64,000 nucleotides of DNA, taken from positions 1 through 64,000 of the forward strand of contig JAJRWR010000026.1 of the NCBI GenBank assembly GCA_024276695.1, read 5' to 3'. The stretch comes from an archaeon. GTDB taxonomy: Archaea; Thermoproteota; Nitrososphaeria; Nitrososphaerales; Nitrosopumilaceae. A program made the position numbers and the translations under genes. Shown piece by piece: positions 956-54,216 of the stretch; the first letter of the stretch is position 1, and each line of letters begins with the position of its first letter. The notes under the pieces are model-generated. The model made no database searches and was not told the origin of the DNA. It saw nothing but the letters and a program-made list of their open reading frames with translations.

Positions 956-1044
956 ATCTTGTGAAGATAGGATAGTAGCATAAAATATATATAATTTGTG
1001 TATACATACTATCTGTGAAAGATAGGATGGTTACACAAAATATA
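956..1044. repeat. Imperfect direct repeat with nested inverted repeats around the start of the AbiEi-like gene; putative operator
   Basis: Copy 1 about 960-989 (TGTGAAGATAGGATaGTagCAtAAAATATA); copy 2 about 1014-1044 (TGTGAAAGATAGGATgGTTACAcAAAATATA). Inverted repeats GATAGTA(971-977)/TACTATC(1007-1013) and CTATCT(1009-1014)/AGATAG(1020-1025). Confidence 0.6.
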
Positions 1045-1851
1045 AACCTTGGACCTCAGGAGACCCGCCTTTTGTTCAGCCTGGAAGAGAAGGGAACGAG
1101 CATCTTTACTGCAGAAGATGCCAAAAAAATACTCGGTTCAGGATCAGCCTCAGCTTGGCTGGTAATTAGCGGCCTTAAGAAAAAAGGCAGAATCAGGCAA
1201 ATCGAGAAGGGAAAATACCTGCTTGTTCCAGCAAGGGCAGGGATAGAGGGTTACTGGGCCGAAGAAGCTTGGGTCATAGTGCCTTATCTGATTGATGAGT
1301 ATTATGTTGGCTTTTGGACTGCGATGAACTTCTGGGGGATGACAGAGCAGATCCCAAATACAGTTTTTGTTGTAACGCCAAAAAGGAAAAAGAAAAGGAT
1401 CATAAAATTTGGAAATCAAAGATACGAATTTGTCACTTTATCAAGAAAAAAATTCTTTGGATTTTTAGAAGAGAAAACAGGTAAAACAACATTCAACATT
1501 TCAAGTAAAGAAAAAACAATAGTAGATGGATTGATGCATCCACAATATTGTGGAGGTATTCCTGAAGTGACTAAAGCAATGTGGAATGCAAGAAAAGATG
1601 TGGAATGGAAAAAAGTATTGGACCTTGCAGAACAGACAGGCATAAATGTTGTTTTAAGAAGGCTGGGATATCTATTAGATGTTCTTAAAATACAAAGTGA
1701 TATTTCAAAGACAATCTTGACAAACTTGAAACGATATCCGTATCAATATCTGGATCCCAATGCGCTAAAAGAGAAGATAGAATATTCAAAAGAATATGGA
1801 TTGATTATAAACTTGACAAAAAATGAGTTGCTAGGATGGAGGGGTCATTAA
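1015..1851 (+). CDS. AbiEi-type antitoxin / wHTH transcriptional regulator (type IV TA)
   Basis: N-terminal wHTH (ETRLLFSLEEKGTSIFTAEDAKKILG...WLVISGLKKKGRIRQIEKGKYLLVPA), followed by an overlapping AbiEii-like nucleotidyltransferase ORF. Start could be GTG 1015 or ATG 1027. Confidence 0.8.
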   Translation: MKDRMVTQNINLGPQETRLLFSLEEKGTSIFTAEDAKKILGSGSASAWLVISGLKKKGRIRQIEKGKYLLVPARAGIEGYWAEEAWVIVPYLIDEYYVGFWTAMNFWGMTEQIPNTVFVVTPKRKKKRIIKFGNQRYEFVTLSRKKFFGFLEEKTGKTTFNISSKEKTIVDGLMHPQYCGGIPEVTKAMWNARKDVEWKKVLDLAEQTGINVVLRRLGYLLDVLKIQSDISKTILTNLKRYPYQYLDPNALKEKIEYSKEYGLIINLTKNELLGWRGH

Positions 1852-2612
1852 TGGATGATGAAAAATTACGTAAACTAGCTGAGAAAGAAGATGTCCCTAT
1901 CGGAACAATAGAAAAAGATTATGCCATTACAAACATTCTCTCTTTGATATCGCGTTTTTCTAGATTGGACAAAATGGTATTCAAAGGAGGAACCGCCATC
2001 AAAAAAATTCATTTTGCTGATTTCAGGTTTTCAGAGGATATTGATTTTACGTGTTCTGAAGATATTTCTACAGACTTTGGAGCCCTATTGAATGATGGCA
2101 TTGGTGATATGGATGTTGATGTTACGGGTATAGAACAAGGAGAAACTGCAGTTGAACAAAGTCGACAGTTTATTGTAAAATACAAAGGATATAACAACTA
2201 TCCAAACAGTGTAAAGATTGATTTGAGTTTACGTGAAAGCGTTCAAGACGGCTCAAGCAATCTTGACGTCTTACATGGTTACGATGAGCTACCAAAATTC
2301 AAAATTCCTGCAATGACACTTGAAGAAATTTTGGCAGAAAAAGTGAGGGCTATAATTTATTCACCGGCTCCAAGACATCTATATGATCTGAATTTCCTTT
2401 TTGGAAAACGAATACAGCTAAAACCAGCCCTGGTAAGAGAGAAGATCAGCCTTTATGGCGACGAGTTTAGTCTAGACAGATTCAAGCAAAGTATTTCAAG
2501 AATGGAGAGACGATGGAAAACAGATTTAGAAAGACTAATGCCCCAAGAGCCACCCCAATTCAATGAGATTTCTGCAAGTGTTTTACAAAAAATATCGGAT
2601 ATAATGCAATAA
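1836..2612 (+). CDS. AbiEii/AbiGii-type nucleotidyltransferase toxin
   Basis: FKGGTAIKKIHF....FSEDIDFT matches the GG(T/S)..D-x-D core of AbiEii. Overlaps the upstream antitoxin; true start may be ATG 1851. Confidence 0.85.
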   Translation: MEGSLMDDEKLRKLAEKEDVPIGTIEKDYAITNILSLISRFSRLDKMVFKGGTAIKKIHFADFRFSEDIDFTCSEDISTDFGALLNDGIGDMDVDVTGIEQGETAVEQSRQFIVKYKGYNNYPNSVKIDLSLRESVQDGSSNLDVLHGYDELPKFKIPAMTLEEILAEKVRAIIYSPAPRHLYDLNFLFGKRIQLKPALVREKISLYGDEFSLDRFKQSISRMERRWKTDLERLMPQEPPQFNEISASVLQKISDIMQ

Positions 2613-2617
2613 TATAT

Positions 2618-2878
2618 TCAAGACTCTGTTACGTTTTGATTGTCAATTATTATTGAATCTGTTTCATTAAGAAAATCAAGAAAAACTGTAAAGTTGATAA
2701 TTTGCTCATCGAGATTATCATCACCAAAGTGCTCGTTTAGAAACATTTCAAATAACTCTTCCAGATTTATTGCATCTAAATAATTGGTATCTGCAGAGCC
2801 TGAATTGTCTTCAATACTTGTTGTCATGTTTAGTTCATTACTGTCTATAATGTAATTAGCATTAGTGTTTTCATCCAT
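2618..2878 (-). CDS. Very acidic small protein (86 aa, 21 D/E, no K/R)
   Basis: Internal ATG start within ORF 2618..3109, chosen to avoid the opposite-strand gene at 3018. Sequence MDENTNANYIIDSNELN...NVTES. Confidence 0.4.
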   Translation of the reverse strand: MDENTNANYIIDSNELNMTTSIEDNSGSADTNYLDAINLEELFEMFLNEHFGDDNLDEQIINFTVFLDFLNETDSIIIDNQNVTES

Positions 2879-3017
2879 GATAATACCATCTTCAAAATCA
2901 TTTAGTGATTCAGAGAATTCATTTTGAAAGAAGAAATTAAAAAAATAAAAGGCGTGTAAAACAATTCGGAAAATTACAGACGCAACGAAGTTTCTATTGG
3001 AAAACAGTATCGATGTA

Positions 3018-3143
3018 ATGAGAGGATTCTGTACACGTTGCAAGGAATATCGAGGAGACAGAGAGGCGTACGGAATACATTTCTGGGATTGTTTTCCGAT
3101 GTGTGACAAGTGTAACTCGTTCGTGGTTTTAGAGGATGATTAA
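3018..3143 (+). CDS. Cys-rich mini-protein (41 aa), zinc-ribbon-like
   Basis: Not in ORF track. Manual translation: MRGFCTRCKEYRGDREAYGIHFWDCFPMCDKCNSFVVLEDD*. CxxC...CxxC; stop is immediately followed by the next ATG. Confidence 0.5.
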   Translation: MRGFCTRCKEYRGDREAYGIHFWDCFPMCDKCNSFVVLEDD

Positions 3144-3320
3144 ATGGAAGAAGAATTTGAAATGATCACGCTTCACTGCGGACACACGGTAAATTTCTAC
3201 AATAGTCCAGGAGTTTGTTACAAGTGCAGAAACAAGTCATGCGAAAGATGTCTGCAACTACTCGACACAGAATTGCTATGTCCGAAATGTTTCAAAGAAA
3301 AAATGGAGGTACAACAGTGA
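3144..3320 (+). CDS. Cys-rich mini-protein (58 aa)
   Basis: Not in ORF track. Manual translation: MEEEFEMITLHCGHTVNFYNSPGVCYKCRNKSCERCLQLLDTELLCPKCFKEKMEVQQ*. Overlaps the next GTG by 4 nt (GTGA). Confidence 0.55.
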   Translation: MEEEFEMITLHCGHTVNFYNSPGVCYKCRNKSCERCLQLLDTELLCPKCFKEKMEVQQ

Positions 3321-3541
3321 AACAACTCATAAGATGTAAAGTCTGTAATTCATTAGTTATTTCAGAACACATCAACGGAGCATGCAGGATATGCAAAAAG
3401 CTGACGTGTCCTAACTGCAAAAGAGAATGCGATAAATGTCATGAAATTATTTGCATGTTTCACATAGAAACAAAAGTCGTGATGAGGCAGCAAAAGCCGA
3501 ACTTGCACAAGCTCTGCCAGTACTGTTCGGAGGTCTGGTAG
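3317..3541 (+). CDS. Cys-rich mini-protein (74 aa)
   Basis: Shortened version of ORF 3215..3541, from GTG 3317: MKQLIRCKVCNSLVISEHINGACRICKKLTCPNCKRECDKCHEIICMFHIETKVVMRQQKPNLHKLCQYCSEVW. Many CxxC pairs. Confidence 0.6.
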   Translation: MKQLIRCKVCNSLVISEHINGACRICKKLTCPNCKRECDKCHEIICMFHIETKVVMRQQKPNLHKLCQYCSEVW

Positions 3542-5292
3542 TGAACTGGTACTGTCTATGTGGGAATTATGTGCAAGGAAAAAGGTTCTGCCCAAGATGC
3601 AAACTAGTAAGATTTAGGCTCGAAAACAGCCCTATTTTGGACTATTGGGGCATGAAACTAGGCACTACGGCAGAAGGCATTCCTTTCAATCTTCCAAGCG
3701 ACCTTTTGACAAAACATACAATGATCTCAGGACAAACGGGTTCTGGCAAGACAAGGTTTGCAATGAATCTTGTAACAAAGGTTGAGAAATCAGGATCTAG
3801 GATTTTGATAATAGACGTCGAGGGAGAATGGAAAAACATTATCCCAGGTTTGCAAAAGGAAACAAAGTATTGCGCAGTCGGGAAAAATCTCAGAATCAAT
3901 CCGTTTGACTTGAACGACCCCGGTCTGATCAAAGAACTTCTGAGAGAAACCGTCTTCAAAGGAATTGAAAAAGAATACTCTGACCTGTCAGCCCAGATGA
4001 ATTTTGTATTGCAAGAAACAATCAACGAAAGCAGAACAATCGAAGAACTAGTCTACAACATAAAGTCATACAACAGAGAAAAACTTACCGCACTGCAAAA
4101 AACAAAGACCGCTCTTCTTGTAAGGTTGGATCCTTTTCTAAGAAGTCCGTTGAAGGAAATCTTTCTGTGCACAAAATCAAATCCAGATTTTACAACAATT
4201 GACGAGAAAAACATTATCATTGATCTTCACGAGCTAGACTCGCTTGTTGCATACAACTCTGAGCTGAGATTGATTTACAACATCATAACGATTTATTTTC
4301 TAAGAAAGATGCTGAGAAAAGAATCTACAAACAACCTGACCAACGTCTTTGTTGCAGACGAAGCGCAGTTGCTAGTTCCAAAAATACTTCACAAATTAAT
4401 TGTAACAGAGTCTTGGCCTGCGACAGAGTTTGCAACAAGACTAAGAAAAAGAGGATGCGGAATAATATTGATAACGCAATCACCGAGCAATCTGGAAAAA
4501 GACATCTTCAAAAACACCGGAACAAAGATATCATTTCGACTTCAGCACCAGGAAGACATCAAGTTGATTGCAGAGTCTGTAGGATTCATTGATCCAGTGG
4601 AGATAGAATATCTGTCAAACTATTTTGTAAAACTGCCAAACAAAAACGCGATAGTTTGCACGATAGGACACGACCCATTTCTGATAACATCTGACGATTT
4701 CCAGCCGTCTTCTCATGAACCTGAAATTCCTGATGACTTGGTAACTGAAGCAGCCGTTTTACCCGATCCTGACGAAAAATTGTTTCTAGAGACTCTAGAA
4801 ACACAGCCTTTCGTGCCTGTACGCCAAAGAAGAAAATTCCTCGGATGGAACGACAAAAAGTATGCCTCAGTCGTGGATTCATTGTTAAATCAAAAGAGGG
4901 TTGAGGTGCAGAAGGTAAAGCTGGGAAGAGGTGCGCCTATGGTTCTGTATCAAAAGCCTCGAAAGATACCGAGCGTAAGACACCAGTTCTATGTCGAATG
5001 GATCTCACAGAAATTGGAAAATTCTGGATTCAAGATTATAAAAAACCTCAAAGACGGGCCGGACATTGTGATTCCAAAAATTAATTCTGTTATCGAAGTA
5101 GAACTTGGCAGTTCAGATGTGCACTACAACATTGCACGAAATTCTAAAAAGTTTGATACGGTTGTTGTTGCATCAGACGAAAAGAAACTGTTAGAATATT
5201 TCAAACAGCAAAACAAAGCAAACAACGTTTTGTTTTTGCAAATACAATTTGTGCCGGCGTTCTTTGAAAAAATGAAAAGTAAAACTAATTGA
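3541..5292 (+). CDS. HerA/VirB4-like (DUF87-type) P-loop ATPase with N-terminal zinc ribbon and C-terminal nuclease-like domain
   Basis: GTG 3541 chosen instead of 3451 because it overlaps the upstream stop by 1 nt. CLCGN...CPRC ribbon; Walker A GQTGSGKT; Walker B-like NVFVADEAQ; ITQSP; C-terminal GPDIVIPKINSVIEVELG. Confidence 0.8.
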   Translation: MNWYCLCGNYVQGKRFCPRCKLVRFRLENSPILDYWGMKLGTTAEGIPFNLPSDLLTKHTMISGQTGSGKTRFAMNLVTKVEKSGSRILIIDVEGEWKNIIPGLQKETKYCAVGKNLRINPFDLNDPGLIKELLRETVFKGIEKEYSDLSAQMNFVLQETINESRTIEELVYNIKSYNREKLTALQKTKTALLVRLDPFLRSPLKEIFLCTKSNPDFTTIDEKNIIIDLHELDSLVAYNSELRLIYNIITIYFLRKMLRKESTNNLTNVFVADEAQLLVPKILHKLIVTESWPATEFATRLRKRGCGIILITQSPSNLEKDIFKNTGTKISFRLQHQEDIKLIAESVGFIDPVEIEYLSNYFVKLPNKNAIVCTIGHDPFLITSDDFQPSSHEPEIPDDLVTEAAVLPDPDEKLFLETLETQPFVPVRQRRKFLGWNDKKYASVVDSLLNQKRVEVQKVKLGRGAPMVLYQKPRKIPSVRHQFYVEWISQKLENSGFKIIKNLKDGPDIVIPKINSVIEVELGSSDVHYNIARNSKKFDTVVVASDEKKLLEYFKQQNKANNVLFLQIQFVPAFFEKMKSKTN

Positions 5293-5330
5293 TTGATTAA
5301 ATGGTAATGAAGTAAAACTAAATTTTATTT

Positions 5331-7289
5331 TTGTTCGAAAAGATTTGTTATGACATAATCTCAAAGCAGCCTGAATTTAATCTAGCATCAATAGAGTCCA
5401 AAATATTGGAGCAGATACAAACCAACATCCGAATCAAGAACATCGTTGCATTTGCACTAGAGGCACGAAACAACCCAATTCAGCAAAAAATCAGACTAGA
5501 TTACTTTGACAAGATTCTATTTAGTGGCAATAATTTAGAAAATGACATTTGTGAAGGACTTGGCAACAAAACTGGCATCAAAAAAGAGATTATCCTTCTT
5601 TTTTACTATGATTACATTCAATCACGAACCGATAGAAAGACCATGTACAAAAACATCAAAGACAACAACTTCGTTTTGGACCTTTCAGAGATTCTGATAG
5701 AAGATTCTGCCTCTGTTTTTAACAACATAACACCCGACCAAAAAGATCTTCTTGTAAAGTTAATGAATTCAAAAAAAGACTTTTTGTTAGATGATTTGTC
5801 TTCGTCCTTTGATTTTCACAAAAGAATAATAGAAGACATGAACAAGTTTGTTGGTTTTCTAGATGACCAAAATATAAAAAACAACCAAACAATTTCAACC
5901 GAGAATATCATAGATATCTTTCAAAATGAAAACAACAAATCTAGATTCCAATCAATGTTGTTATTGTCAAAACACATCATTGCAAATCAACAATGGAAAG
6001 TGTTAACCGAAAATGAAATGGATGCAGTTGTCTTTTCGTCACTGGTGTTGTTCTTTTCACAGTATTTTGATAGTGCAAGAGAAGAATCATGTAGAGCAGC
6101 ATCGATTCATGATTTGTCCACAAAAACACTCTATGCGTGGATGGAACAAAATGGATTTGAAAAACAATTTGGACATGGAAAGACAACTTTGAGTAAAATT
6201 TGCATGCAAGTATTTTCAGGAGAGATTACCAAATTTAATGGGCTAGTAGACTTCAAAGCAGAGTTACAAAAAGGAGTTCTTTTTGCAAGTACAAAGGAGC
6301 TTGCCGGAGTAAGATTTGATAAAATTGATTCCAAACTAGAGGACATTTCCACTGGAGAAAAATATCACAAGTTATTCAAAAGAACTCAGACTGCTCTTGC
6401 CAATGTGATGAGTACTCAAATCAGTATAGGGTTTATCGAGCATGCCCTAACGTCTCAAATGATTTCTGCATACATGATTACACGTACTGATGGTAAGGTA
6501 ATGGAAGTGATTGATAATTATATGAACAAAGCATGTGATGAATTAGCACAAATTAACAAAGATGACCGATACAAGGACATGTTAATTCTAGACAAGTCTT
6601 CAGGAGCATCAACAAGAATCGGCATAATTCCTATGAATATCAAAGAATTTGGAGACTTTACCACATTGTTTCATCATGCATTTAGACATGCAGAAAAAAA
6701 GTTTGAGAAAGACAATCCAAATAGAACAAATCTACAGTTCACATACAATATGATACGTGTCATACCCTCGGATCTGACATTTAAGCATCTAGAGATAGGA
6801 GGTGCAGAAAGCAGAGAAAACCCAGTAAAAACAATTTCTGAGTTAGTCAAGACCAGACTTGGAGTGTTAGATAGAATCAAGATTGCAGCATCAGCAAAAG
6901 AAGACAAGAGCCCAACTGTTGCATTACAAGACATCATCACAATGCTGTTTGATAAAAATACCAACATTACATCATTAGTGGGAGATTCCATTTCTGACAT
7001 TGTTTCATCGGAAAAGACATTTCAAAAGATATCTGATAACGGTGAGTTTGACAGAACACTGAAGATCCATTACAATGTTTCAGAAAACACGGAACTTGCA
7101 AAAGTCCTTTACACAAAAAATCAAAGCAACGACCAAGGAACTCTTGTAGAATTAATTGACATTGTAAGTTCTATCTTGCACAAAAATAAAATCTCAATTT
7201 CTGAAAAAGAGATCAATACATTTTGCAATTCTGTACTTGATGGAATGCTAGACATTGCAAACATACTATATTCAAGCTCATCAGACTAG
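5331..7289 (+). CDS. Uncharacterised 652-aa protein
   Basis: Long ORF 38 nt downstream of the ATPase, TTG start. No family recognised. Confidence 0.75.
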   Translation: MFEKICYDIISKQPEFNLASIESKILEQIQTNIRIKNIVAFALEARNNPIQQKIRLDYFDKILFSGNNLENDICEGLGNKTGIKKEIILLFYYDYIQSRTDRKTMYKNIKDNNFVLDLSEILIEDSASVFNNITPDQKDLLVKLMNSKKDFLLDDLSSSFDFHKRIIEDMNKFVGFLDDQNIKNNQTISTENIIDIFQNENNKSRFQSMLLLSKHIIANQQWKVLTENEMDAVVFSSLVLFFSQYFDSAREESCRAASIHDLSTKTLYAWMEQNGFEKQFGHGKTTLSKICMQVFSGEITKFNGLVDFKAELQKGVLFASTKELAGVRFDKIDSKLEDISTGEKYHKLFKRTQTALANVMSTQISIGFIEHALTSQMISAYMITRTDGKVMEVIDNYMNKACDELAQINKDDRYKDMLILDKSSGASTRIGIIPMNIKEFGDFTTLFHHAFRHAEKKFEKDNPNRTNLQFTYNMIRVIPSDLTFKHLEIGGAESRENPVKTISELVKTRLGVLDRIKIAASAKEDKSPTVALQDIITMLFDKNTNITSLVGDSISDIVSSEKTFQKISDNGEFDRTLKIHYNVSENTELAKVLYTKNQSNDQGTLVELIDIVSSILHKNKISISEKEINTFCNSVLDGMLDIANILYSSSSD

Positions 7290-7308
7290 GGAAAATATTT
7301 CACTATAT

Positions 7309-7524
7309 CTATAACAGTTCTAAAAATTCTTCTTTGGTAAGACCGCAATCATTTATTATTGACAAGAGCAATCCCTTTCCAAGTTCATCTTTTCGTGGAA
7401 CTGAAGACCAAAGACCTTGACCATTTTCAACTATGATGTGACTTCCTCTTTGACGTGATGGATAAAATCCCTTTTTCTTCAGCGCTCCTAGCACTTCGCG
7501 CCAACCCAAAACAGGAAGGCTCAA
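7309..7524 (-). CDS. hicA: HicA-family mRNA interferase toxin
   Basis: WREVLGALKKKGFYPSRQRGSHIIVENGQG...VPRKDELGKGLLLSIINDCGLTKEEFLELL matches the HicA dsRBD-like fold. Overlaps hicB by 4 nt. Confidence 0.88.
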   Translation of the reverse strand: MSLPVLGWREVLGALKKKGFYPSRQRGSHIIVENGQGLWSSVPRKDELGKGLLLSIINDCGLTKEEFLELL

Positions 7525-7718
7525 ATCGTAACGGTAACTGCTTTAGTGGTTTTTCTTTTAGAATCTAAGTATGATTTACAGATTTTTATGGCTTCTTTAG
7601 TATCTGCAATTGCTTCAGTTTTGGTATTGCCTTGACCTCTTGCTTGTGGAATTTCGATACAATAACCCACATAGAATTTACCATCCTTTTTTATATCAAT
7701 GCTGTACTTTGTTGCCAT
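7521..7718 (-). CDS. hicB: HicB-family antitoxin
   Basis: YSIDIKKDGKFYVGYCIEIPQARGQGNTKTEAIADTKEAI is the HicB motif. Confidence 0.88.
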   Translation of the reverse strand: MATKYSIDIKKDGKFYVGYCIEIPQARGQGNTKTEAIADTKEAIKICKSYLDSKRKTTKAVTVTI

Positions 7719-7784
7719 ACTGAGAGATACTGTTTTTTCTATATAAAATTAGACGTTATTCGTAAGATATTTGATTTCGGTAGT

Positions 7785-8705
7785 ATGAATCAGAACATGT
7801 ATACAGATGATGCCTATATTTTGGCCTTTGTAGATAAATTTGGAGACACTCATGATATGCACATAACCGATGAGTTGAATTCTGGCGGCACATGGGAATA
7901 CATAGATTTCAAGTTTACACTGCCTCATTCTTGTTACATTTTGATTTGGAGAAGGGATCGAAAAAAGATTGACAGGAAAAATGCACAAGATGTTGCAAAA
8001 TACACACGTGATGATCTCAAAGATTTTGTAGATGAAGGAAAGTTTAGTGGATCGTTGTGGCATCAAAAAATCAGACAAAAAATAGTAGATTGCAACAACT
8101 GCCTTGTACTTGCGTGGGATGAAATGATTCTGCCAGAATTTTATGACACATGGGAAGAATTTGTAAACGAAGTGTTCGAAATGGTTAAAGAAAAATCCAG
8201 AGAGATTACAAAACCAGGATCAAGACATGATCAAGAACTTGCTATTTATGAAGGAAAAATAGATTTTGATAAACAAGATAATCCAATACTCAAGTCATAC
8301 AGTGTTAGAACAAACAAATTTGCAGGATATAAGATTCCATCAGATGAGATAATTAAAAAATACGTTACAGAGATGATGCTTGAAAACTATAATGACGCAA
8401 ACATTATTCTCTCAGAACATTATGGTATTTTTCCAGCAGAGATTGAAACAGAAGAAGTAGGGGAGACAATTATTGAATATGATTTTGTTAATCACAAAAT
8501 ATTACTTAATTTGGAAACGATTTCAGAATTTGAGTTAAAAATTCCAGCGTTGTTTTTGGGATTTTTCAAACATTTGTCATGTGTAAAAGATTGGAGATTT
8601 GATGATGATCCATACACAAGTATTACACTAGAAAAAACAGAAGCCGAGAAATTTTCTCACTCTACAATTCAACGAATGCTTGAGATAGGAATTGATCCAC
8701 GATAG
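7785..8705 (+). CDS. Uncharacterised 306-aa protein
   Basis: In-frame ATG 7785 (MNQNMYTDDAYILAFV) preferred over 7632, which would overlap hicB. Convergent with the RM gene. Confidence 0.65.
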   Translation: MNQNMYTDDAYILAFVDKFGDTHDMHITDELNSGGTWEYIDFKFTLPHSCYILIWRRDRKKIDRKNAQDVAKYTRDDLKDFVDEGKFSGSLWHQKIRQKIVDCNNCLVLAWDEMILPEFYDTWEEFVNEVFEMVKEKSREITKPGSRHDQELAIYEGKIDFDKQDNPILKSYSVRTNKFAGYKIPSDEIIKKYVTEMMLENYNDANIILSEHYGIFPAEIETEEVGETIIEYDFVNHKILLNLETISEFELKIPALFLGFFKHLSCVKDWRFDDDPYTSITLEKTEAEKFSHSTIQRMLEIGIDPR

Positions 8706-8706
8706 A

Positions 8707-11700
8707 TTATTTTGATAACGACTGAATGATTTTTTGTTGTTGGTCTTTATTGATATTATAAAGTCTAAACACCATTGTATCCATTTCGTAAATAATTTTT
8801 TCATTTTCTTTTAAAAGAAGATTAATTGATTTTTTGTATGAATTAAAGTAATCTTCCCATTCATCCGTTTCAGCAAGAGATAATTTTGATGATAATTTTT
8901 TTGAAATTTCCTTGAGAAATTCTGAAAATTCTAATGTGTAAAATTTTTCTAATTTCTTGGATATTGATTGTTCTGAACATCTCTCTAAAACCCGATTTTT
9001 GAATTTGATTTTTTTATTTTCAATCTCTTCCGTATTTGTTTCTACTTTTTGTGCATTTTTAACGAATGCGTGTTGACTTTTCTCATCAATATTTACAATT
9101 GGTATTTGGGACAAAAAGGTATTGAGATATGAATAATATCCTCCTTGTTTTTTTGTGGAGATTGCATGAAGAAAATATTCAATTAATTTGGAATTCAGTA
9201 TGGCGATCAAATAATGATTATCAAATTTATTTTGAACAAATGCGAATACTCCTGCTCCTCCGGTAAGAAATGCACTACCGCCTCCATCAAATGCAAAACT
9301 GTTGTATTTTGTAAGTGCTGGAGTTACAATTTTTTTAGAATTGAATGTATTTAGTTTTCCTTTTCTGATCAAACCAAACCATTCTTTGTTTTCAGCAACT
9401 GTTTTTCTAGAATCTTTTCTATTTTGCAAGTCTTTCTTATTTTCTGTCAGATAAGCATATGTTTTAGGAAATTTTTGTTTCAGAACCTTTTCATCAAGCA
9501 ATTCTGTTTTGTCCTCTACTAGCCTATATGGATAAATGGCATAATCAAAAGGGCCTTTAATATTCCAAGGATCAATATTTCTTCCTCTGAGAACTTTAAT
9601 TAACAAATCTTTTTCTAATTTTTTATTTGAAATTGTATTTTCATTCAAAAGTAAAATTTTGTCTGCACCTGTTGTTAAACCTGTAGATGGATTGGCAAAA
9701 ATTCCAAGAGTTTCATGATTCTTTACATTTCGAATTGAAGTCAGGATATCATTTTCTTCTGAAATTCCAAAATTCCAAATTTCTTCACCAATGTTTTTCT
9801 TTTCAATTCCAACTTTTGTAACATTTTCTTGAGTATTATTTTCTAGATTTATTGTAAGATTGTTAATTAGACTGCTTTCGAGTTTTTCAATTTTGAAATA
9901 ATTGAAAGGTTTTGGTGTGTCATTGGAATAAATTATGATAGCAGGGTATGTAATTGCGTCTTCAAATACAGGCAATGAACCAAAATCAACAAATTTTTTG
10001 ATTTGTAAATTGGATAATAATTTTCTGAGATTTCGTCCATATTCTGCAGTCATAAATTGTGATGAAGAGATAAACCCAATCTGCCCTTCTTTTTTAATTA
10101 ATTTTGATGCTAGTTCAAAGAATATCATAGATATGTCAATTCGTTTGTGTGCTACTGAGTATTTTGATTTGAAATAATCAATGTCGTCATAGTTTAATTC
10201 TTGTACTCTTACATATGGGGGATTTCCAACTATTATGTCAAATCCTCCATCATTAAGAATATTCTTGAATTCTTTTTCCCAATGAAATGCTTTGTTAGGT
10301 GCAATTTTGTCATCTGAAATTAAACTATTCCCTACACAGATATTTTCTGACAAATCAATGAGTTTTCTATTTCCTGTAGCGATTTTTAGAAAAAGACTTA
10401 ATTTGGTAATCTCTGTAGACTCTTCATTAATATCCACACCAAAAATGTTACTCTCGATTATTTTCTTAGCTTCTGACTCTTCATTCCATTTTGCAAGGGT
10501 AAATTGTTCAGTGACTTTTTTATGTTTTTTACCCTTCAACGAAATACTATATTGCCCCTTAAACTCTTTGAAGGTTTGAATTTCTTTGTGTATTTCTAGT
10601 AATACATCTACTGCTTTTAGTAAAAATGCCCCACTGCCACAAGCAGGATCTAGAATTTTTAAGTTCTTGAATCGCTCTTCCAATTTTTCGATGTCATTTG
10701 AATATTCTTTGATTAGTTCTTCTGGGGTTGTAACATTTTTCTTTGATAGATATGGTATGATGGTATTTCTGCAAATAAAATCTGTGATGTATTCAGGAGT
10801 GTAAAAAATCCCCTCTTTCTTACGTTTTGATGTTTTATTTTCTTGTAAATCTTCTAAATCATTAAGAGATTGTTCAAAAATATGTCCTAAAATATTTACG
10901 TTAAGTTCAGTATTGAAATCAAACGAGGACATGTAAAGTAAATTAGTGATGATTGGGTTGATTCTGTTTTTATATTTCTTTATTATTTTCTCTGCAAACT
11001 CGTCTAGCTTTACTTTCTTTTTAAGTTCTGAATTCTGATATTCTTTCTTAAAGAATTCTGGTTCTGTTAAATCTTTGAAGAAGAAACGTGGAGGTATCTT
11101 GTTTTGAAAAAGACCACCATTGAAACCAAATATTTCAACAGGCGTGCTTGCTCCTTTGTCAAGACCTTCGAAAAGAGAGTATATCGTATCGCAAGCATAT
11201 CTTGAATGTTCAGATACTGGAACTGCATCCAATACTTTGAGCATTTGATCTCTGATTAATCTCTGCGGAACTTTTCCTGTATCTTCTGCAAAGAAGATGA
11301 AAATCATACGATTCAAAAACAACTGTGCATAGTGAATCGCCTCGTCTCTGTCAATTTCGCCATTACTTTGAAATTCTTTTATCAACATCAAACGAGTTTC
11401 ATGGAAAAGTTTGTAGAACTGTTTTGTGAATTCTTTTTCTTCTATGACTGATTGATCATAAAGAGTACTGACGAATTTATTGTCAATGATACTGTTCCTG
11501 GAAAAAATTGCTATGAATTCTTTTAACTTTTCATCGTTGCTTCTTACGTCTTTAAAATCAAAGATGTGATATTTTGAAGTTCCTTTGCTTTTGTCTATTA
11601 ACACAAATTGTTCATAATTAGTTGCAACGCCATAATCTAGATTCAAAGTTCCCATGTAGTCCCATGTCTGTTTTACAGGCGTGGAATGCTCTTTTTTGTC

Positions 11701-12021
11701 TCTATGTTGAGGTGCAAAAAGATCTTTTGTTTTTGTTCCCTTGGCCTCAAAGCAGACTATCTTTTTACCTTCTTTGTTTGCAAATGTGAATTCAACGTTA
11801 CCTTCTTCATATCCCATTTCTTCCTTAACAGGATATCCGAGTAGATCTTTTAGGATGATTAATCCAAATTTAAAATAATTCTGTTTTTCTTTTTCTAATT
11901 GTCCACTTTCTAAAAGTTTCAACCATTCTTTGGCGGCCTTGTTCTGAGCAGTTGATATTTTTACATCCGAACATAGGCGTTTGATTGTTTTTGGATTGAA
12001 GAGATCATTTTTGATTGCCAT
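8707..12021 (-). CDS. Fused type IIG (Eco57I-like) restriction endonuclease-methyltransferase
   Basis: Nuclease-like VEFTFANKEGKKIVCFEAKGTK; N6-adenine MTase motifs ILDPACGSGAFL and GNPPYV; TaqI-like specificity C-terminus. Confidence 0.88.
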   Translation of the reverse strand: MAIKNDLFNPKTIKRLCSDVKISTAQNKAAKEWLKLLESGQLEKEKQNYFKFGLIILKDLLGYPVKEEMGYEEGNVEFTFANKEGKKIVCFEAKGTKTKDLFAPQHRDKKEHSTPVKQTWDYMGTLNLDYGVATNYEQFVLIDKSKGTSKYHIFDFKDVRSNDEKLKEFIAIFSRNSIIDNKFVSTLYDQSVIEEKEFTKQFYKLFHETRLMLIKEFQSNGEIDRDEAIHYAQLFLNRMIFIFFAEDTGKVPQRLIRDQMLKVLDAVPVSEHSRYACDTIYSLFEGLDKGASTPVEIFGFNGGLFQNKIPPRFFFKDLTEPEFFKKEYQNSELKKKVKLDEFAEKIIKKYKNRINPIITNLLYMSSFDFNTELNVNILGHIFEQSLNDLEDLQENKTSKRKKEGIFYTPEYITDFICRNTIIPYLSKKNVTTPEELIKEYSNDIEKLEERFKNLKILDPACGSGAFLLKAVDVLLEIHKEIQTFKEFKGQYSISLKGKKHKKVTEQFTLAKWNEESEAKKIIESNIFGVDINEESTEITKLSLFLKIATGNRKLIDLSENICVGNSLISDDKIAPNKAFHWEKEFKNILNDGGFDIIVGNPPYVRVQELNYDDIDYFKSKYSVAHKRIDISMIFFELASKLIKKEGQIGFISSSQFMTAEYGRNLRKLLSNLQIKKFVDFGSLPVFEDAITYPAIIIYSNDTPKPFNYFKIEKLESSLINNLTINLENNTQENVTKVGIEKKNIGEEIWNFGISEENDILTSIRNVKNHETLGIFANPSTGLTTGADKILLLNENTISNKKLEKDLLIKVLRGRNIDPWNIKGPFDYAIYPYRLVEDKTELLDEKVLKQKFPKTYAYLTENKKDLQNRKDSRKTVAENKEWFGLIRKGKLNTFNSKKIVTPALTKYNSFAFDGGGSAFLTGGAGVFAFVQNKFDNHYLIAILNSKLIEYFLHAISTKKQGGYYSYLNTFLSQIPIVNIDEKSQHAFVKNAQKVETNTEEIENKKIKFKNRVLERCSEQSISKKLEKFYTLEFSEFLKEISKKLSSKLSLAETDEWEDYFNSYKKSINLLLKENEKIIYEMDTMVFRLYNINKDQQQKIIQSLSK

Positions 12022-12093
12022 ATAATCAAAATTAAGTTCATGAGCAGATATAGATAATTATTCTTCAAAATTCGGAGTATTGAGTAAAAATAA

Positions 12094-15057
12094 TTACTCC
12101 TCGCTTTCTTTCTTGTCGCATATGCTCCAATATTCGCAGTTTCTGCATGTTTGATAGCTTGGGGTTGCCTCAAAGTCTTCATTTAAAATTGATTTTACAG
12201 TATTTCCGATCTCTTCTTTGACTGATTTTACTTGAGTCACATCAATTGGATTGTCTACTATCTTGTCATGCTTTAGATAAAAGAGTGAAGCGTTTACAGG
12301 AAATTCACCATATTGTTTCTCAACACCTAATGCATAGATATTCATTTGAGGATCTACCTTGATTGATTTGCTTGTCTCATACACTCCACCCGTTTTGAAA
12401 TCAACAACTGCAAACTTTTCATCAGGGGTTTTTTCTACTCTGTCAATAAACCCATTGAACGGTACACCTTCGATTTCAATTCTAAATGGCTGTTCTACTG
12501 CAACCGGCGAATTCTTGTTTTCAGATATCCATTTCAGATATGTCTTGATCATTGTCTTTGCTTTTTCCTTGGCCTGATTTTCTTGAGTTTCGGACTGGAA
12601 AGAAGTTGCATTCCATTCTTTTTCCAAAATCTCAAATGCCAACTCTTCAGTGGGTTCAGTTCCATCCATCTGAAGTTTTGTAAGATGCTCTGCTACAGCA
12701 TGCACAGCCGTACCCAGTTCAAAGTAGGACCTTGCTTTAGTTGGAGCCTGAAGCACATAGGAGAACTTGAATTTTAGAGGGCAATCTCTGTATGTCTTTA
12801 TCTTTGATGCACTGAGTCTCAGTTTGTCCTTGTTTAGAAGAGGAATCTTCTTTCCTTCCAGGTCTGCTTTCAGATTGTCTTCGCCATCCTCAAAACTAAG
12901 TATCTCTTCTGGTTTGAATCCATCAAAACTTCCGTGTTTTTCGTAGTGCTTTACTTTTGCAAGTTCAACAATTCTCTGGATTGCAGTTTTCAAATGCATT
13001 TGATTAAGTGAACTGGCTGCTTTTGTTTGCAAATCTTGTTTTACTTTCTCAACTCTTCTTTCTTCTTCAAGCAACACTTCTCCGCTTTGTCCGTCATATT
13101 TTACTAGGTTTATCAAAGGATTGTCTTCGAATTTAATTTCATCAAGAAATCTAGATGGTTTTGTTTCTCTTACATTCTGTCCATATCGTTTTGCATATGT
13201 GATGTACAACAAGTTCTGAGCCCTGGTCATGGCGACATAAAACAATCTTCTTTCTTCTTTAACATACAATTCTTTTTCATCATCGGACTGTGTCATTCCT
13301 TTTGAGAGTTCATTTGGAACGTAGAACTTTTTTGCTCTATATCTTAGAGGAAGTTTGTTTTGTGCAACGTCTACAATAAACACAACAGGAAACTCTCTTC
13401 CCTTGCTCTGGTGTATTGTAGTTACTTGTACAGAGTTGTCAAGACCTGAACCTTCTTTTAGTTCTACGTCAAACTGTCCCATCAAGTTTAGATAATTAAT
13501 GAAGTCATCTAACGTTCCTTGCGGATTGAGAGACTCGTATTCGTTTGCAATGTTGTAGAATTCTTTTAGAATGAGTTGGTTTCTTCGATTTTCAGGTGTG
13601 TCAGACTGAATCGATCTCTTGTAGAGATCAGAGATTGACATGATTATTTCATATATCGTCTCGCTGACTGTCATCTTTGATTCAAGTTCTATTATTTTTT
13701 GAATCTGTTCTGCCAGTTCTTTGACCTGTTCTTTTTGGGTAATGTCTAGTTCATTACAATCTTTGATTGTGTCAAATACAAAATCAATGTCGGTAGGGTC
13801 TGCGCGGGCCTTCTTCTTTGCCACATGGTTGATTCTTGCTATGTTTATCTCGTTTAGGCCGTGATTCTTCATGAGCCTGTTGATTTCTATGCCTGATATG
13901 GTAGGTTTGTTGGAAATTTCCAAAAATGCCATTAGATCTCTGACTATAGGAGACGAGAAAATGTTGGATTCTCCGACAAATGTGGTTGGAATGCCGTGTG
14001 CTTTTAGCGCCTTTGCGAACTTTTTCCCTTCGGCCTTTCTTCTGGACAGCACCACAAAATCTCTGTAAGTTAAAGAATCAGATGTGCCGTCTCTTCTCTT
14101 AATTTTTTTATCCAAAAGTTCCTTTATGGTCTTTACTACAAATTCTACTTCTGATGACTCGTTTGAACATTGAGCAACAGTTACCTTCTCTCCTTCCTCA
14201 TGTTCTAATTTGAGTTTCTTTGCATGTCTTTCTGGAACTCCTTCAAGTGATTGGCTTGCAAGGTTCACTATGTTCTGCGGACTACGGTAGTTTCTGTTTA
14301 ACACAACTACTGTAGTGTCTGGAAAATAAGATTGAAAGTCTTTAAAGTTTGTAAGATATGCTCCTTGGAATCTGTATATGCTCTGGTCATCATCACCTAC
14401 CACTGTCACGTTTCCGTCTTTTGCAATTAATTTCACAAGCTCAAGTTGTGCAAAGTTGTTGTCTTGAAACTCATCTACCAAAACATGTTTGAATTTTTTC
14501 TGATATTTTGAAAGGACATTTTCTTTTTTCTTGAAAAGTTCTATGGTCAGAACAACCATGTCATCAAAATCTATAACTGCTTTGCTTCTTTGAAACTCTT
14601 GATATTTAAAATAGATTTTGCAAAGGTCTGAGAGTTTTAGCAGAAAGTCTCTTTCAGTGTCCTCTAATTCTTTTTTTAATTTTGTGTCGATGTATTTTTG
14701 TAATTCTTCTGGGGAAATCAGTTCGTCTTTGAAAGTACTGATTCCATCAATTACAGATTCAATGATTTCAACTGCGTTGTTTCCAATTTCCAAATGCTCA
14801 AGTTTAAAGTTGTCAATGTTTTTCAAACCCCAAACCAACTGAGCTGATCTTTTGATAACACCTGACGACATTCCGATTCCAGAATCCAGTACGTTGTCTT
14901 CCAGTGCGTCTTTTGCAAACGAATGAAATGTACTTATCTCCATTTCAGTCACGTCAATTAATTTTTCAAGGCGCTGTTTCATCTCGTCGGCTGCCTTTTC
15001 TGAAAAAGTAAGACAGAGAATTTCTGAAGGCTTGATTCCTGAACGCACCAGATGCAT
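12094..15057 (-). pseudogene. UvrD/RecB-like superfamily 1 helicase with C-terminal PD-(D/E)XK Fe-S nuclease, missing its N-terminal Walker A
   Basis: Begins at motif Ia (ILCLTFSEKAADEMKQRL). DEFQDNN, VVGDDDQSIYRFQGA, QSKGREFPVVF, VAMTRAQNLLYI, VDFKTG, C-x2-C-x5-C present. Motif I absent; in-frame stop immediately upstream of the Met. Confidence 0.8.
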
Positions 15058-15230
15058 TTACTCGTTCAGAAGAATTTCTTGATCTTGAAATTACCAACGA
15101 AGACCCGATTCTAAAACAAAAAGAAGAGATGCAAGACACAATTCAAAAGGCAACTCCTGAGGAACTTGGTCAGATGCTAGAGATGTTTCAGAAACTGAAC
15201 ATCGGCAAGACAGACCAAGTCAAAGGATAG
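15036..15230 (+). pseudogene. C-terminal fragment, tyrosine recombinase/integrase-like (first reading-frame part)
   Basis: Open + frame FLNAPDAFTRSEEFLDLEITNEDPILKQKEEMQDTIQKATPEELGQMLEMFQKLNIGKTDQVKG*. NAPDAF...LDLEI resembles the zinc-ribbon tail of archaeal integrases (family memory, unverified). Confidence 0.45.
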
Positions 15231-15332
15231 CGACAAGCGAAGAAGCCGAAGAATTCATCTTAAAGGGTTGGGGATTCGTTGGAATATTGCCAAACGGCAA
15301 AGTTGTTTTAGAAAATTTTCGGAAGGGGATTT
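15225..15332 (+). pseudogene. Continuation of the integrase-like tail in a shifted frame
   Basis: Frame-shifted (relative to 15036-15230) RIATSEEAEEFILKGWGFVGILPNGKVVLENFRKGI*. Resembles the A-T/S-x-EEA-x-x-x-I-x-x-G-(F/W)-x-(F/Y)-V tail of thaumarchaeal integrases (unverified). Confidence 0.4.
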
Positions 15333-15373
15333 GAACCCACAGAGGGGATGGACCGGATGGGATTTGAACCCAC
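15326..15373. repeat. 15-bp direct repeat gggatttgaacccac (15326-15340 and 15359-15373); second copy is the tRNA-Val T-arm
   Basis: Exact repeat read directly. First copy lies just outside the tRNA and looks like a T-arm relic. Confidence 0.75.
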
Positions 15374-15444
15374 GACCTTTGCGGGAAATAAATTTCCTTA
15401 CGCAGTGTGAGTGCGTCATCCAAACCAAACTAGACGACCGGTCC
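15349..15444 (-). tRNA. tRNA-Val(CAC) with a putative ~21-nt non-canonical intron in the variable region (about 15379-15399)
   Basis: Acceptor GGACCGG/CCGGTCC, D-arm GTCT/GGAT, anticodon arm ACGCA-CTCACAC-TGCGT, T-arm GTGGG-TTCAAAT-CCCAT. Extra AAGGAAATTTATTTCCCGCAA with a GGAAA/TTTCC hairpin between TGCGT and AGGTC. Confidence 0.85.
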
Positions 15445-15537
15445 AACAATTCTCTTTATGGGTGGTTTTTTGTCTTTGCTATGTGATTATGTCATAATTA
15501 CCTTGGTCTTTTTTAGTAACTCTGAAAAACAATCTTT

Positions 15538-19267: not shown

Positions 19268-22200
19268 CTATTCAACTGAAATTCTAATTTTTTGTCCGTC
19301 AATATCATCTTCTTTGTATTCTTTACAAGAATCTGTAAAGTTGACCTGTTTTACTCTAACTAAAAATGCCAATTCATCTGCTTTCTCTTTCATCATTTTA
19401 AGTGATTCTTCATCCAATTCCAAAATTGATGCTACATCTAAAACATCAGTTGGTGTATACCCTCTTTCTTTTCTCAAAGTCTGTAGTCTTCTGGCAATAT
19501 CTTTGACCAGCCCTTTTGACATCATCTCTTTGTTTCTAGATGTTGAAATTAATACAATGTAATTGTCTCTTTTTGCAACTGCAAAATTTTCACTTGCATC
19601 AAAACCTATAATGAAATCTTCATTGTCTAATGAAATAATTTCACCATCAATATCAAAATCATATTTTGATTCTTTTTGCAATGATGAAATTATTTTTTCT
19701 GGGTCTGTTTCATTAAAAGATGAAATCAATTTCCCCATGTGCTGTTTTGCTTTTGGTCCGATTCTTTTTCTCTCTAATTCGACAATTCCTTTAACTGGCA
19801 ATCCCAATTGTTTTAATTCTAAAATCTGTTCTAATCCAGATTCTTTCTCAGTTTCTGTGATGCTGAATTTCTCTACATTAAGTTGTGATTGTAATAGCTC
19901 TGATAATGATTCTAGTTTTATTTTTTGACCTTTTTTCACACAAATCTGAGCCTCAGTTAATGGCCATCTTCTCTTTAGTTTTCCTTTCATCCTTGCTGCA
20001 GATGATATGGATACTACATCTTTCATTATATCAAATGATTCTTCAATCTCTTCATTGACTAGTGATTCTTGATATGAAGGCCATTTGTCAAGTAGGATGC
20101 TTTGTTTTCCTGTAAATACATTTTGATAGAGATACTCACTTGTAAATGGGCAAAATGGATGAATCAAAATATCTAATGTTTTGAGTACTTCGCTGAGAAC
20201 TGCATATATTGATAATCTTCTGTTTTTCTTTTCTTCATCCTCGTCCCATAACTCTCCCCTTGTAATTGGAATGTATATCTGACTTAGATTGTTAATTATG
20301 AAATCGTCAATTGCTTTTGCTCCTTCATGGAATTTGCATGATTCATTTTTTTCAGTCAATATCTGAATTAATTTTTGAAGTTTGGACAATAACCAAATGT
20401 CTGGTGATGTTAACAGTTGGTTTTGCTTTGCCCATTCTATTGTATTTGTTTGGTCAAAATTGTCATATTGACTATTCTGTTGAAAGTATAGGTGTAGGTT
20501 GAATAGAGTATTGATTACTTGATATGGTCTCGACATTAATTCATCTGTGCTGAAACTTAGTGGCTCAATTGGATTTGCTTTCCACATGAAATAGAATCTT
20601 ATCAGATCTGCTGGATATTTTTGAAGTAATTCTGTTCCTTCTAGAACGTTGCCTTTGCTTTTACTCATTTTACCTCCTTTCTCATCTAAAACATGTCCTT
20701 GAAACAAGAATGCTTTGTATGGTGGTATGGGGGCATTGTTCAAAATTACATTTTCAATTAGTAGTGTATAAGCCCATCCTCTAGTTTGATCAATCCCTTC
20801 TGTAAAAAATGGTGCTGGAATTTCTTTATTGTATTCTTCATCAGTCAATGATGAATATGGTGCAGACCCACTGTTGTGCCATGTATCTAGCACATACTCT
20901 TCTCTTTTTGTATTGACACTGCTACATTTTTTACATTTTATTGTAATGTTATCAATCCATGGTCTGTGTAATTCAAAATCTGGACCATCTGGTAGTTTGT
21001 ATGCAGATTCTACAATGTCTTTTCTTGTAAAGAACCAATTCTTTTCCCCGCAATCTTCACAATTCCAAACTGGTAGTGGGCAGCCCCAAATTCTTTCTCT
21101 AGAGATACACCAAGGATGTCTTTCTTTGATTATTCCAAGAAATCTATTTTTTGGCTGCTCAAAAAAGTATTCTACACTTTCTGCCGCATCAATTGCTTTG
21201 TTTTCTAGTCTGTCTAATTTGTAAAACCACCCTCTCCTAGCAAGCCAAACAATTGGATGGTGTGATCTCCAACAAAGTGGGTATTTGTGTTTAATTTTTC
21301 CAATTTTTACTAGGGCATTACACTCTTTTAGATCCTCAACTATTGGTCTATCTGCATCTCTGACAAACATTCCTTGATATTTTCCTGCCTCGTTTGTGAA
21401 TTTTACTTCATCATCAATGGGGTTGAAAATTTTGACTTTACGTTTATTTGCAATTTTGATATCCTCTTCACCATTTGCAGGGGATAGATGAACTAGCCCA
21501 CTTCCTGTACTGGCATCAACAAATGTTTCAGACACTGCCACATGATAATTATCTAATTTTGAAATTTCATTTAATTCTGGAACTAAATCTAATAATGGGT
21601 GGATGTATTTTTTCCCTTCAAATTCAGATCCCTTTACAGATTTTATAATTTCATATTCTTCAATTTTTACTTCTATCATGAATTCTTCTAATCTGGTTTT
21701 TCCAACTACCCATGTCTCATTTTCTACTTTTACATATGTATAATCTTCTTCAGGTTGTAATCCTACCATTGCATCTGTAACAAGTGTAAATGGCATTGTA
21801 GTCCATACAATTAGAAATGCATCTTCGTTGACTAGTTTGACCTTGTAGTATAGTGATGGATCTTTGACTTCTTCATATCCTTGATTTACTTCTGCATGAC
21901 TAAGTGATGTTTGACAACTTGGGCAATATGCAATTACTGTAAAATCTTCTTCTAGAATTTTATTGTCATGTGCTTTTTTGAGTACTTGCCATTCCCTTTC
22001 AATAAATTCATCTCTAAAAGTCCAATATGCTTTTTCATGATTAAATGACATTCCAAGTAAATCATCAACTTCTACCCATATCTTGTTGAATTTCTCAACA
22101 ACTTTTTTACACTCTGATACTATTCTTTCAACTCCGAATTCTTTGATAGCTTCTGTCTTACCTCCTGAAACCCCCAACTCTTTTTCAACTTGTAACTCTA

Positions 22201-22465
22201 CGGGAAGTCCTTGCGTATCCCATCCTCCGTTGAATTCAATTTTTTTTCCCTGCAGTGTATTGAATCTGTACCACAAATCTTTGATCACCCTACCTCTGAG
22301 ATGACCTGCATGTGGAACTCCGTTCATTGTAGGCGGCCCTTCAATGAATCGAATTTTCTCAGGTTTGTCTGATGCAAAAATCTGTTTTTCTAAATTTATG
22401 GATTTGATGTAATCTCTCATTTGAGATTCTATTGCTTTTGCATCAAATTTGGTGGAAAGCTCCAT
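19268..22465 (-). CDS. ileS: Isoleucyl-tRNA synthetase
   Basis: HIGH-like GVPHAGHLRGR; KMSKSKGNV; CPSCQTSLSHAEV; full-length class I aaRS. Confidence 0.93.
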   Translation of the reverse strand: MELSTKFDAKAIESQMRDYIKSINLEKQIFASDKPEKIRFIEGPPTMNGVPHAGHLRGRVIKDLWYRFNTLQGKKIEFNGGWDTQGLPVELQVEKELGVSGGKTEAIKEFGVERIVSECKKVVEKFNKIWVEVDDLLGMSFNHEKAYWTFRDEFIEREWQVLKKAHDNKILEEDFTVIAYCPSCQTSLSHAEVNQGYEEVKDPSLYYKVKLVNEDAFLIVWTTMPFTLVTDAMVGLQPEEDYTYVKVENETWVVGKTRLEEFMIEVKIEEYEIIKSVKGSEFEGKKYIHPLLDLVPELNEISKLDNYHVAVSETFVDASTGSGLVHLSPANGEEDIKIANKRKVKIFNPIDDEVKFTNEAGKYQGMFVRDADRPIVEDLKECNALVKIGKIKHKYPLCWRSHHPIVWLARRGWFYKLDRLENKAIDAAESVEYFFEQPKNRFLGIIKERHPWCISRERIWGCPLPVWNCEDCGEKNWFFTRKDIVESAYKLPDGPDFELHRPWIDNITIKCKKCSSVNTKREEYVLDTWHNSGSAPYSSLTDEEYNKEIPAPFFTEGIDQTRGWAYTLLIENVILNNAPIPPYKAFLFQGHVLDEKGGKMSKSKGNVLEGTELLQKYPADLIRFYFMWKANPIEPLSFSTDELMSRPYQVINTLFNLHLYFQQNSQYDNFDQTNTIEWAKQNQLLTSPDIWLLSKLQKLIQILTEKNESCKFHEGAKAIDDFIINNLSQIYIPITRGELWDEDEEKKNRRLSIYAVLSEVLKTLDILIHPFCPFTSEYLYQNVFTGKQSILLDKWPSYQESLVNEEIEESFDIMKDVVSISSAARMKGKLKRRWPLTEAQICVKKGQKIKLESLSELLQSQLNVEKFSITETEKESGLEQILELKQLGLPVKGIVELERKRIGPKAKQHMGKLISSFNETDPEKIISSLQKESKYDFDIDGEIISLDNEDFIIGFDASENFAVAKRDNYIVLISTSRNKEMMSKGLVKDIARRLQTLRKERGYTPTDVLDVASILELDEESLKMMKEKADELAFLVRVKQVNFTDSCKEYKEDDIDGQKIRISVE

Positions 22466-22548
22466 CTGGATTTTGGTATGTTTGTGCCATTATAAAGCTA
22501 AATTGATTTTTTGAGACTTGGATTATATAATTGGGTAAAAGATAATTC

Positions 22549-51781: not shown

Positions 51782-51790
51782 GTAATTAAG

Positions 51791-52984: not shown

Positions 52985-53052
52985 TCGAACTTCATTCTTT
53001 GCGATCAACTTTTTGAATCTTCATTGCACACAAAACTTAAATTCATAGTAAC

Positions 53053-54213: not shown

Positions 54214-54216
54214 AAA

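Follow-up and report, generated by a model that had tools for sequence, protein, structure and literature searches.

What kind of system is encoded by the tightly packed genes at positions 3018 to 5292 of a 64,000-nucleotide (nt) stretch of Nitrosopumilaceae DNA (contig JAJRWR010000026.1, positions 1 to 64,000; hereafter, the window)? An earlier note, made from the sequence without database searches, had proposed that three cysteine-rich mini-genes, a HerA-like ATPase gene, and a 652-amino-acid (aa) open reading frame (ORF) behind them form an undescribed system, and had named HerA-DUF4297 and HerA-SIR2 among the antiphage systems in which such ATPases occur. We find that the mini-genes and the ATPase gene are a genuine four-gene cassette and very probably the conserved core of a family of integrated mobile elements of ammonia-oxidizing archaea that also carry a Xer-type integrase and Orc1/Cdc6, with the window holding a decaying copy. 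This reading is based on the constancy of the cassette and its linkage to integrase and Orc1 genes, on its patchy distribution, and on its location in a tRNA-bounded island that relatives lack. It draws further on an att-like repeat of the end of the tRNA gene in a genome of the same genus (G031), on the lack of a close integrase or Orc1 in the window's own genome, on the differing defense cargo, and on the fold of the ATPase and the selection acting on it.

Four overlapping or abutting genes encode three zinc mini-proteins and a motor

The genes follow one another on the plus strand, with exactly the coordinates and overlaps that had been read by hand in the earlier note:

3018-3143, plus strand: mini-1, 41 aa, zinc-ribbon-like (C5, C8, C29, and C32 invariant over eight loci)
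3144-3320, plus strand: mini-2, 58 aa, treble-clef/RING-like zinc protein (0-nt gap to mini-1)
3305-3319, plus strand: Shine-Dalgarno GGAGG and GTG start of mini-3 (GGAGG-N7-GTG pattern)
3317-3541, plus strand: mini-3, 74 aa, GTG start, 4-nt GTGA overlap with mini-2 (FYVE-like double zinc finger)
3529-3543, plus strand: Shine-Dalgarno GGAGG and GTG start of the ATPase gene (GGAGG-N7-GTG pattern)
3541-5292, plus strand: ATPase, 583 aa, GTG start, 1-nt overlap with mini-3 (FtsK-HerA superfamily)

The GGAGG-N7-GTG pattern occurs at two sites in the whole 64 kb (0.52 sites expected by chance), and it is precisely there that mini-3 and the ATPase gene begin. Since overlaps of −1 to −17 nt between cassette genes are also found in most relatives, translational coupling within the cassette appears well supported. 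On the minus strand, a 163-aa ORF starting from TTG (2618-3109) overlaps mini-1; the acidic C-terminal half of this ORF may correspond to a shorter genuine gene.

CxxC pairs are present in all three mini-proteins and a zinc ribbon opens the ATPase, both as previously noted. The invariant columns in the alignments of mini-1, mini-2, and mini-3 are almost solely Cys, His, and Gly. In mini-2, the motifs C-G-H, CxxC-x4-CxxC, and CxxC are invariant across nine loci, and a lone weak match was obtained to Prok-RING_4 (0.004). Ten Cys residues of mini-3 are invariant over nine loci, and its AF2 model (pLDDT, 92) had FYVE domains (2yw8/1vfy) as the best Foldseek matches (TM score, 0.56 to 0.58; E, 0.03 to 0.05). 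Against the Pfam FYVE profile (PF01363), the mini-3 protein of the window stayed below the cutoff (13.4 versus 27.8 bits), and the best E value among the nine mini-3 members, reached by one of them, was 0.0041; no Pfam family was above the cutoff for any of the three mini-proteins. With a Foldseek E value of only 0.03, the predicted likeness of mini-3 to FYVE-type double zinc fingers is a resemblance of fold only. Relative to FYVE/RING/B-box treble-clef fingers, the mini-proteins are alike in the predicted fold of mini-3 (FYVE) and the Cys spacing of mini-2, but they score under the curated cutoffs and are tiny stand-alone archaeal proteins.

The ATPase is an FtsK-HerA-type motor. Its N-terminal C-x-C-G...C-x2-C zinc ribbon has four Cys residues that are invariant in an alignment of 10 homologues, and the motor carries Walker A (GQTGSGKT, residues 64 to 71) and DEAQ (residues 273 to 276) motifs, matches Pfam DUF87 (7.4e-16), and has an AF2 model (pLDDT, 79) for which Foldseek returned HerA, VirB4, TrwB, and DndH-C. 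Beyond the motor, a segment that we take to be winged-helix (wHTH)-like is followed by a C-terminal domain with a conserved GPD...VELG motif and invariant H481, D508, V520, and E521. A nuclease-like fold is suspected for this domain, its activity being uncertain because no conserved Lys follows. The ratio of nonsynonymous to synonymous substitution rates (dN/dS) of about 0.10 relative to G031 indicates purifying selection. Apart from the DUF87 motor domain, the cassette genes gave no family above the cutoff in the libraries searched, and we found no description of the zinc trio with the ATPase in the open-access literature. The idea of something undescribed thus survives in so far as this is a coupled, conserved set with no further family above the cutoff in those libraries; as a stand-alone system it is not supported, the set being very probably a mobile-element core.

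The best named NCBIfam profiles for the ATPase, CedD (2.3e-25) and VirB4 (1e-17), raise the alternative that the cassette is a reduced conjugation module (type IV secretion system-like, of the VirB4/CedD type) of an integrative-conjugative element. Structure comparison points the same way, with VirB4 (4ag5) giving the best coverage of the model (TM score of 0.71 by target length). Each profile match is far under its curated cutoff, the ATPase reaching 89.2 of the 600 bits set for the CedD equivalog (NF053655). CedD has a transmembrane segment and a VirB4-like N-terminal domain (PMC11868833), whereas our search for a transmembrane segment in the ATPase yielded none. Thaumarchaeal integrative-conjugative elements typically have VirB4 and VirD4 pairs together with VirB6 (PMC6563490), but VirB6, a pilin, a pilus ATPase, and a second coupling ATPase were absent from the proteins scanned, which were those of the window, G031, G085, L041, and L043 and not every ORF of every element. 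The likeness to CedD, CedB, and VirB4 therefore lies in the best named profile (CedD) and in how well the motor is covered structurally; unlike them, the cassette ATPase is without a transmembrane segment, a VirB4-like N-terminal domain, or accompanying channel or pilus genes, and beyond them, it has a zinc ribbon, a further domain at the C terminus, and the zinc mini-proteins as companions. We regard a conjugation module as decidedly improbable.

The cassette recurs with an integrase and Orc1/Cdc6 amid changing cargo

The trio and the ATPase gene were found together at 12 loci in 11 archaeal genomes (the window, G031, G085, G132, and L041 to L048). Searching 61 near genomes with the ATPase gave matches in 15, mostly to remote HerA-type proteins, with true orthologues in G031 (79%) and G052 (43%). 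A scan of named genomes gave eight loci (L041 to L048) from Nitrosotenuis, other Thaumarchaeota, and one Bathyarchaeota metagenome-assembled genome (MAG). Profile searches were positive in 11 of 400 genomes of the class and in 6 of 398 in a sample of the phylum, so that the distribution is rare and patchy. Cys-rich mini-genes lie upstream of the ATPase gene at all 12 loci, the one exception to the full arrangement being L048 (the Bathyarchaeota MAG), where mini-1 was not recognized. The grouping noticed earlier is therefore more than chance: it recurs at 12 loci with zinc ligands as nearly the sole invariant residues, which establishes the cassette. A co-occurrence check had been proposed for the ATPase and the 652-aa protein alike; the cassette recurs elsewhere, but the 652-aa protein does not.

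Searches of virus collections bear on a third explanation, in which the cassette serves a provirus by packaging its genome, with an A32-like ATPase. One PHROG terminase profile matches the ATPase core (4.4e-16), and Makarova et al. (2014, PMC4158269) name HerA-like arCOG00280 as an ATPase that may pump viral DNA. Against this, a search of 50,697 phage records gave nothing, and neither the ATPase, P0005, nor mini-3 had a match in 2.9 million viral contigs; we also noticed neither a capsid nor a tail gene in the islands, although fast-evolving capsids could escape recognition. A packaging module is thus highly improbable, and the conjugation and provirus readings were both set aside for want of supporting genes. 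The earlier note would have been refuted by a match to a known conjugation or viral packaging module, and none was matched in the scanned proteins. A plasmid search returned matches of only 22 to 24%, to unrelated bacterial ATPases.

An intact Xer-type integrase gene and an Orc1/Cdc6 gene lie near the cassette at nine of the nine loci with long enough flanks. In those copies that were checked, the element integrase has a zinc ribbon at its C terminus; that of G031 matches Pfam Phage_integrase (4.8e-11; tyrosine-recombinase type). The integrase gene is directed at the mini-genes in G031, G085, L043, L045, and L047 and away from them in G132, L041, L042, and L046, while the orientation of Orc1/Cdc6 is constant; we found no convincing inverted repeats flanking the integrase gene that would cause either orientation. 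The ATPase gene is often followed by members of two more small families, both of about 100 aa and one of them near DUF2958.

Around this constant core, the defense genes are changing cargo. AbiE is present at four loci and in three of them (L042, L043, and G085) stands between mini-3 and the ATPase gene. The window and G031 carry type IIG restriction-modification, and L046 carries an apparent type I restriction-modification and cytosine methylase set (by sequence inspection, with no profile scan). Downstream of the cassette in L041 (L041:12942-16501), Prok-E2 family E, ThiF (E1-like), and two TIR genes stand in a row, and one gene of the G085 element (L064:2175-3569) matches ThiF weakly. In L043 (L043:11201-14198), an AlbA/Schlafen gene overlaps a Piwi-domain gene, and the G132 element (L065:3320-4909) encodes a 529-aa relative of that Piwi protein without a Pfam match.

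This company raises the possibility that the cassette is itself an island-borne defense system against plasmids or viruses, with a HerA-like motor and zinc-finger sensors. It lies among defense genes in most elements, HerA-family motors serve known defense complexes (some of them among the Foldseek matches), and PADLOC mad8 matches the motor core (7.8e-21). The cassette, however, is constant and linked to the integrase and Orc1 at all nine testable loci while the defense genes change, and no effector (SIR2, DUF4297, or a NurA-type nuclease) is constantly adjacent; among the neighbors scanned (those of the window, G031, G085, L041, and L043), no NurA, SIR2, or DUF4297 partner gene was found. 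The ATPase has the RecA-like motor superfamily in common with the HerA proteins of HerA-NurA, HerA-SIR2, and HerA-DUF4297 but lacks their N-terminal HAS barrel, the docking site for effectors in known HerA motors: residues 44 to 60 onward (P0004) align to HerA profile positions 130 to 170, and about 37 residues, including the zinc ribbon, stand before the motor where HerA has the barrel. With a zinc ribbon at its N terminus and no HAS barrel, the ATPase does not belong to a HerA-SIR2 or HerA-DUF4297 system, and a reading as an antiphage system of that type is not supported, as the cassette travels with the integrase and Orc1/Cdc6 and defense is the changing cargo. A stand-alone defense system was rejected as first choice on this ground and is unlikely.

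The window copy lies in a tRNA-bounded island

The left 15.3 kb of the window is an island whose right edge falls exactly at the 3′ end of a tRNA-Val(CAC) gene. Besides the cassette, it contains the following:

1015-1851, plus strand: AbiEi antitoxin, cargo (Pfam AbiEi_1, 3.9e-12; PADLOC AbiEi, 1.1e-75)
1836-2612, plus strand: AbiEii nucleotidyltransferase toxin, cargo (Pfam AbiEii, 2e-34)
7797-8705, plus strand: 302-aa accessory protein (conserved with G031; dN, 0.119; dS, 1.25)
8707-12021, minus strand: type IIG restriction-modification enzyme, cargo (Eco57I, 2.8e-42; PADLOC IIG, 3.5e-91)
12094-15057, minus strand: UvrD helicase/PD-(D/E)XK nuclease, 5′ truncated (Pfam UvrD and PDDEXK_1)
15051-15224, plus strand: second-integrase stub, 58 codons (tblastn; 76% identical to the C terminus of the 426-aa integrase of G031)
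15346-15445, minus strand: tRNA-Val(CAC) (ARAGORN), integration site whose 3′ end is the island boundary

The genomes G006, G007, G022, and G036 lack the island, and their homology to the window begins at 15346 to 15349. The equivalent foreign stretch of G031 likewise ends at tRNA-Val, and at a distance of 35 kb G031 carries an imperfect, att-like repeat of the end of this tRNA gene (83 to 85% over 48 bp). A pattern search for an att repeat in the window's own genome gave no adjacent copy, the contig stopping before the left side. Just past the 3′ end of tRNA-Val, at 15310 to 15345, lies a second partial T-arm copy (GTGGGTTCAAATCCCC), possibly left by an earlier integration. The 302-aa accessory protein matches no Pfam family.

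Several features suggest that the window copy is no longer mobile. Its UvrD gene has lost the N-terminal GPGSGKT Walker A segment present in the G031 copy and is joined to the 58-codon integrase stub. The element integrase and Orc1/Cdc6 are missing beside the cassette, and neither has a close copy in its own genome (99.5% complete), where the matches are 28 to 32% for the integrase and 25% for Orc1. It looks like an immobile, decaying remnant of an element.

Some points weigh against an element core with a decaying copy in the window. The contig starts at base 1 of the window, which places the left end of the island outside the data. The near saturation of dS leaves no way to date selection since the deletions. 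No recognized integrase or Orc1 gene lies in the 20 kb of L048 that was covered. Finally, the exact role of the cassette (segregation, excision, or transfer) would follow from superfamily membership and neighborhood only.

Relation to known elements and a possible role for the motor

Makarova et al. (2014, PMC4158269) list HerA-like, Orc/Cdc6, and integrase families among those frequent in archaeal dark-matter islands, and Krupovic et al. (2019) described thaumarchaeal cryptic integrated elements without discernible signature genes, one of which, NitAQ6f-E1, has Orc1/Cdc6 (PMC6563490). The cassette elements are like those cryptic elements in their tRNA gene insertion, XerC/D-type integrase, restriction-modification cargo, and lack of a conjugation set, and like NitAQ6f-E1 in having Orc1/Cdc6. 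Unlike the cryptic elements as described, they have a zinc/ATPase cassette that defines one family. We therefore consider them, by comparison with the descriptions of the catalogued elements, a family that is new and can be defined but belongs to an already known kind of element, and not a categorically new system. The cassette can serve as a marker for this one family, which spans close relatives to a Bathyarchaeota MAG. Gene callers easily miss the tiny cassette genes.

For the cassette as an element core, a motor served by zinc-protein loaders has about an even chance of being its mode of action. The ATPase would form a ring and pump double-stranded DNA, and the zinc proteins, made together with it through translational coupling, may act as DNA-binding or loading subunits. 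Its most likely task would be to move element DNA, either in replication and segregation or, together with the Xer-type integrase, in excision and resolution. FtsK serves XerCD, and the motor-integrase partnership is modeled on this analogy. Cell-to-cell transfer by the element is possible; we found no channel-like genes for it among the scanned proteins. The defense passengers beside the cassette may help the element to be kept.

More speculatively, and in our view rather doubtfully, the cassette might be an undescribed DNA-mobility machine, in which a zinc-ribbon FtsK-HerA motor with three cotranslated zinc-finger loaders segregates or transfers Orc1/Cdc6-replicating elements without type IV secretion and so spreads defense genes (including the E1/E2-TIR and Piwi-Schlafen sets) among ammonia-oxidizing archaea. 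The cassette ties the element family to the spread of defense systems in an abundant archaeal group, and it raises the question of what use a motor with three constant zinc partners is to an element without a visible transfer apparatus.

The 652-aa ORF is a truncated cargo gene

The ORF that the earlier note placed within 40 nt of the ATPase gene, as part of the gene set, is real but is not a complete gene:

5309-5335: deletion junction, where 3.1 kb of G031 is missing from the window (blastn blocks)
5331-7289, plus strand: 652-aa ORF, TTG start 38 nt past the ATPase stop, 5′-truncated remnant (residues 487 to 1137)

Its counterpart in G031 is an intact 1,137-aa gene, to the C terminus of which the window protein is 80% identical. 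In blastn comparisons with G031, window positions 2940 to 5309 correspond to L025rc 5350 to 7706 and positions 5335 to 8721 correspond to L025rc 10830 to 14218; codons 1 to 486 of the 1,137-aa gene lie in the 3.1 kb kept by G031, along with four small genes. The TTG of the window ORF sits four bases ahead of 5335, where similarity to G031 resumes. A distant 1,124-aa homologue in G247 aligns over residues 262 to 1080, spanning the break, and near residues 90 to 160 each of the long proteins has a pair of hydrophobic segments that the window version does not have. In the intact 1,137-aa protein, transmembrane windows at 108 and 145 accompany a charged, coiled-coil-like N-terminal stretch; a PDB sequence search with this protein gave no match. 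Given the similarity break, the G247 alignment across it, and the absent hydrophobic segments, the 652-aa ORF is the C-terminal 57% of a membrane-anchored cargo protein of ∼1,130 aa.

The frame has stayed open, with a dN/dS near 0.09 relative to G031, but at a dS of about 1.3 this is mainly a record of selection that preceded the truncation. The family is present at 2 of the 12 cassette loci (the window and G031) and is otherwise represented just by the distant full-length G247 homologue, which makes the protein cargo and not a partner. It was accordingly rejected as a fifth cassette component.

A second conserved module shares some of the islands

In G031 and G132, the zinc/ATPase cassette shares its island with a second conserved module, which consists of a 178- to 235-aa protein, a 704- to 729-aa HerA-like ATPase, a 182- to 187-aa protein, and a different integrase. 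It lies at ∼51400 to 55100 of G031:C3 (L030/L019) and at 19333 to 23948 of G132 in reverse complement (L065/L067). In G031, this module adjoins tRNA-Val, with the 729-aa form of the HerA-like ATPase and the 426-aa integrase. A relative of its first protein is also present in L048.

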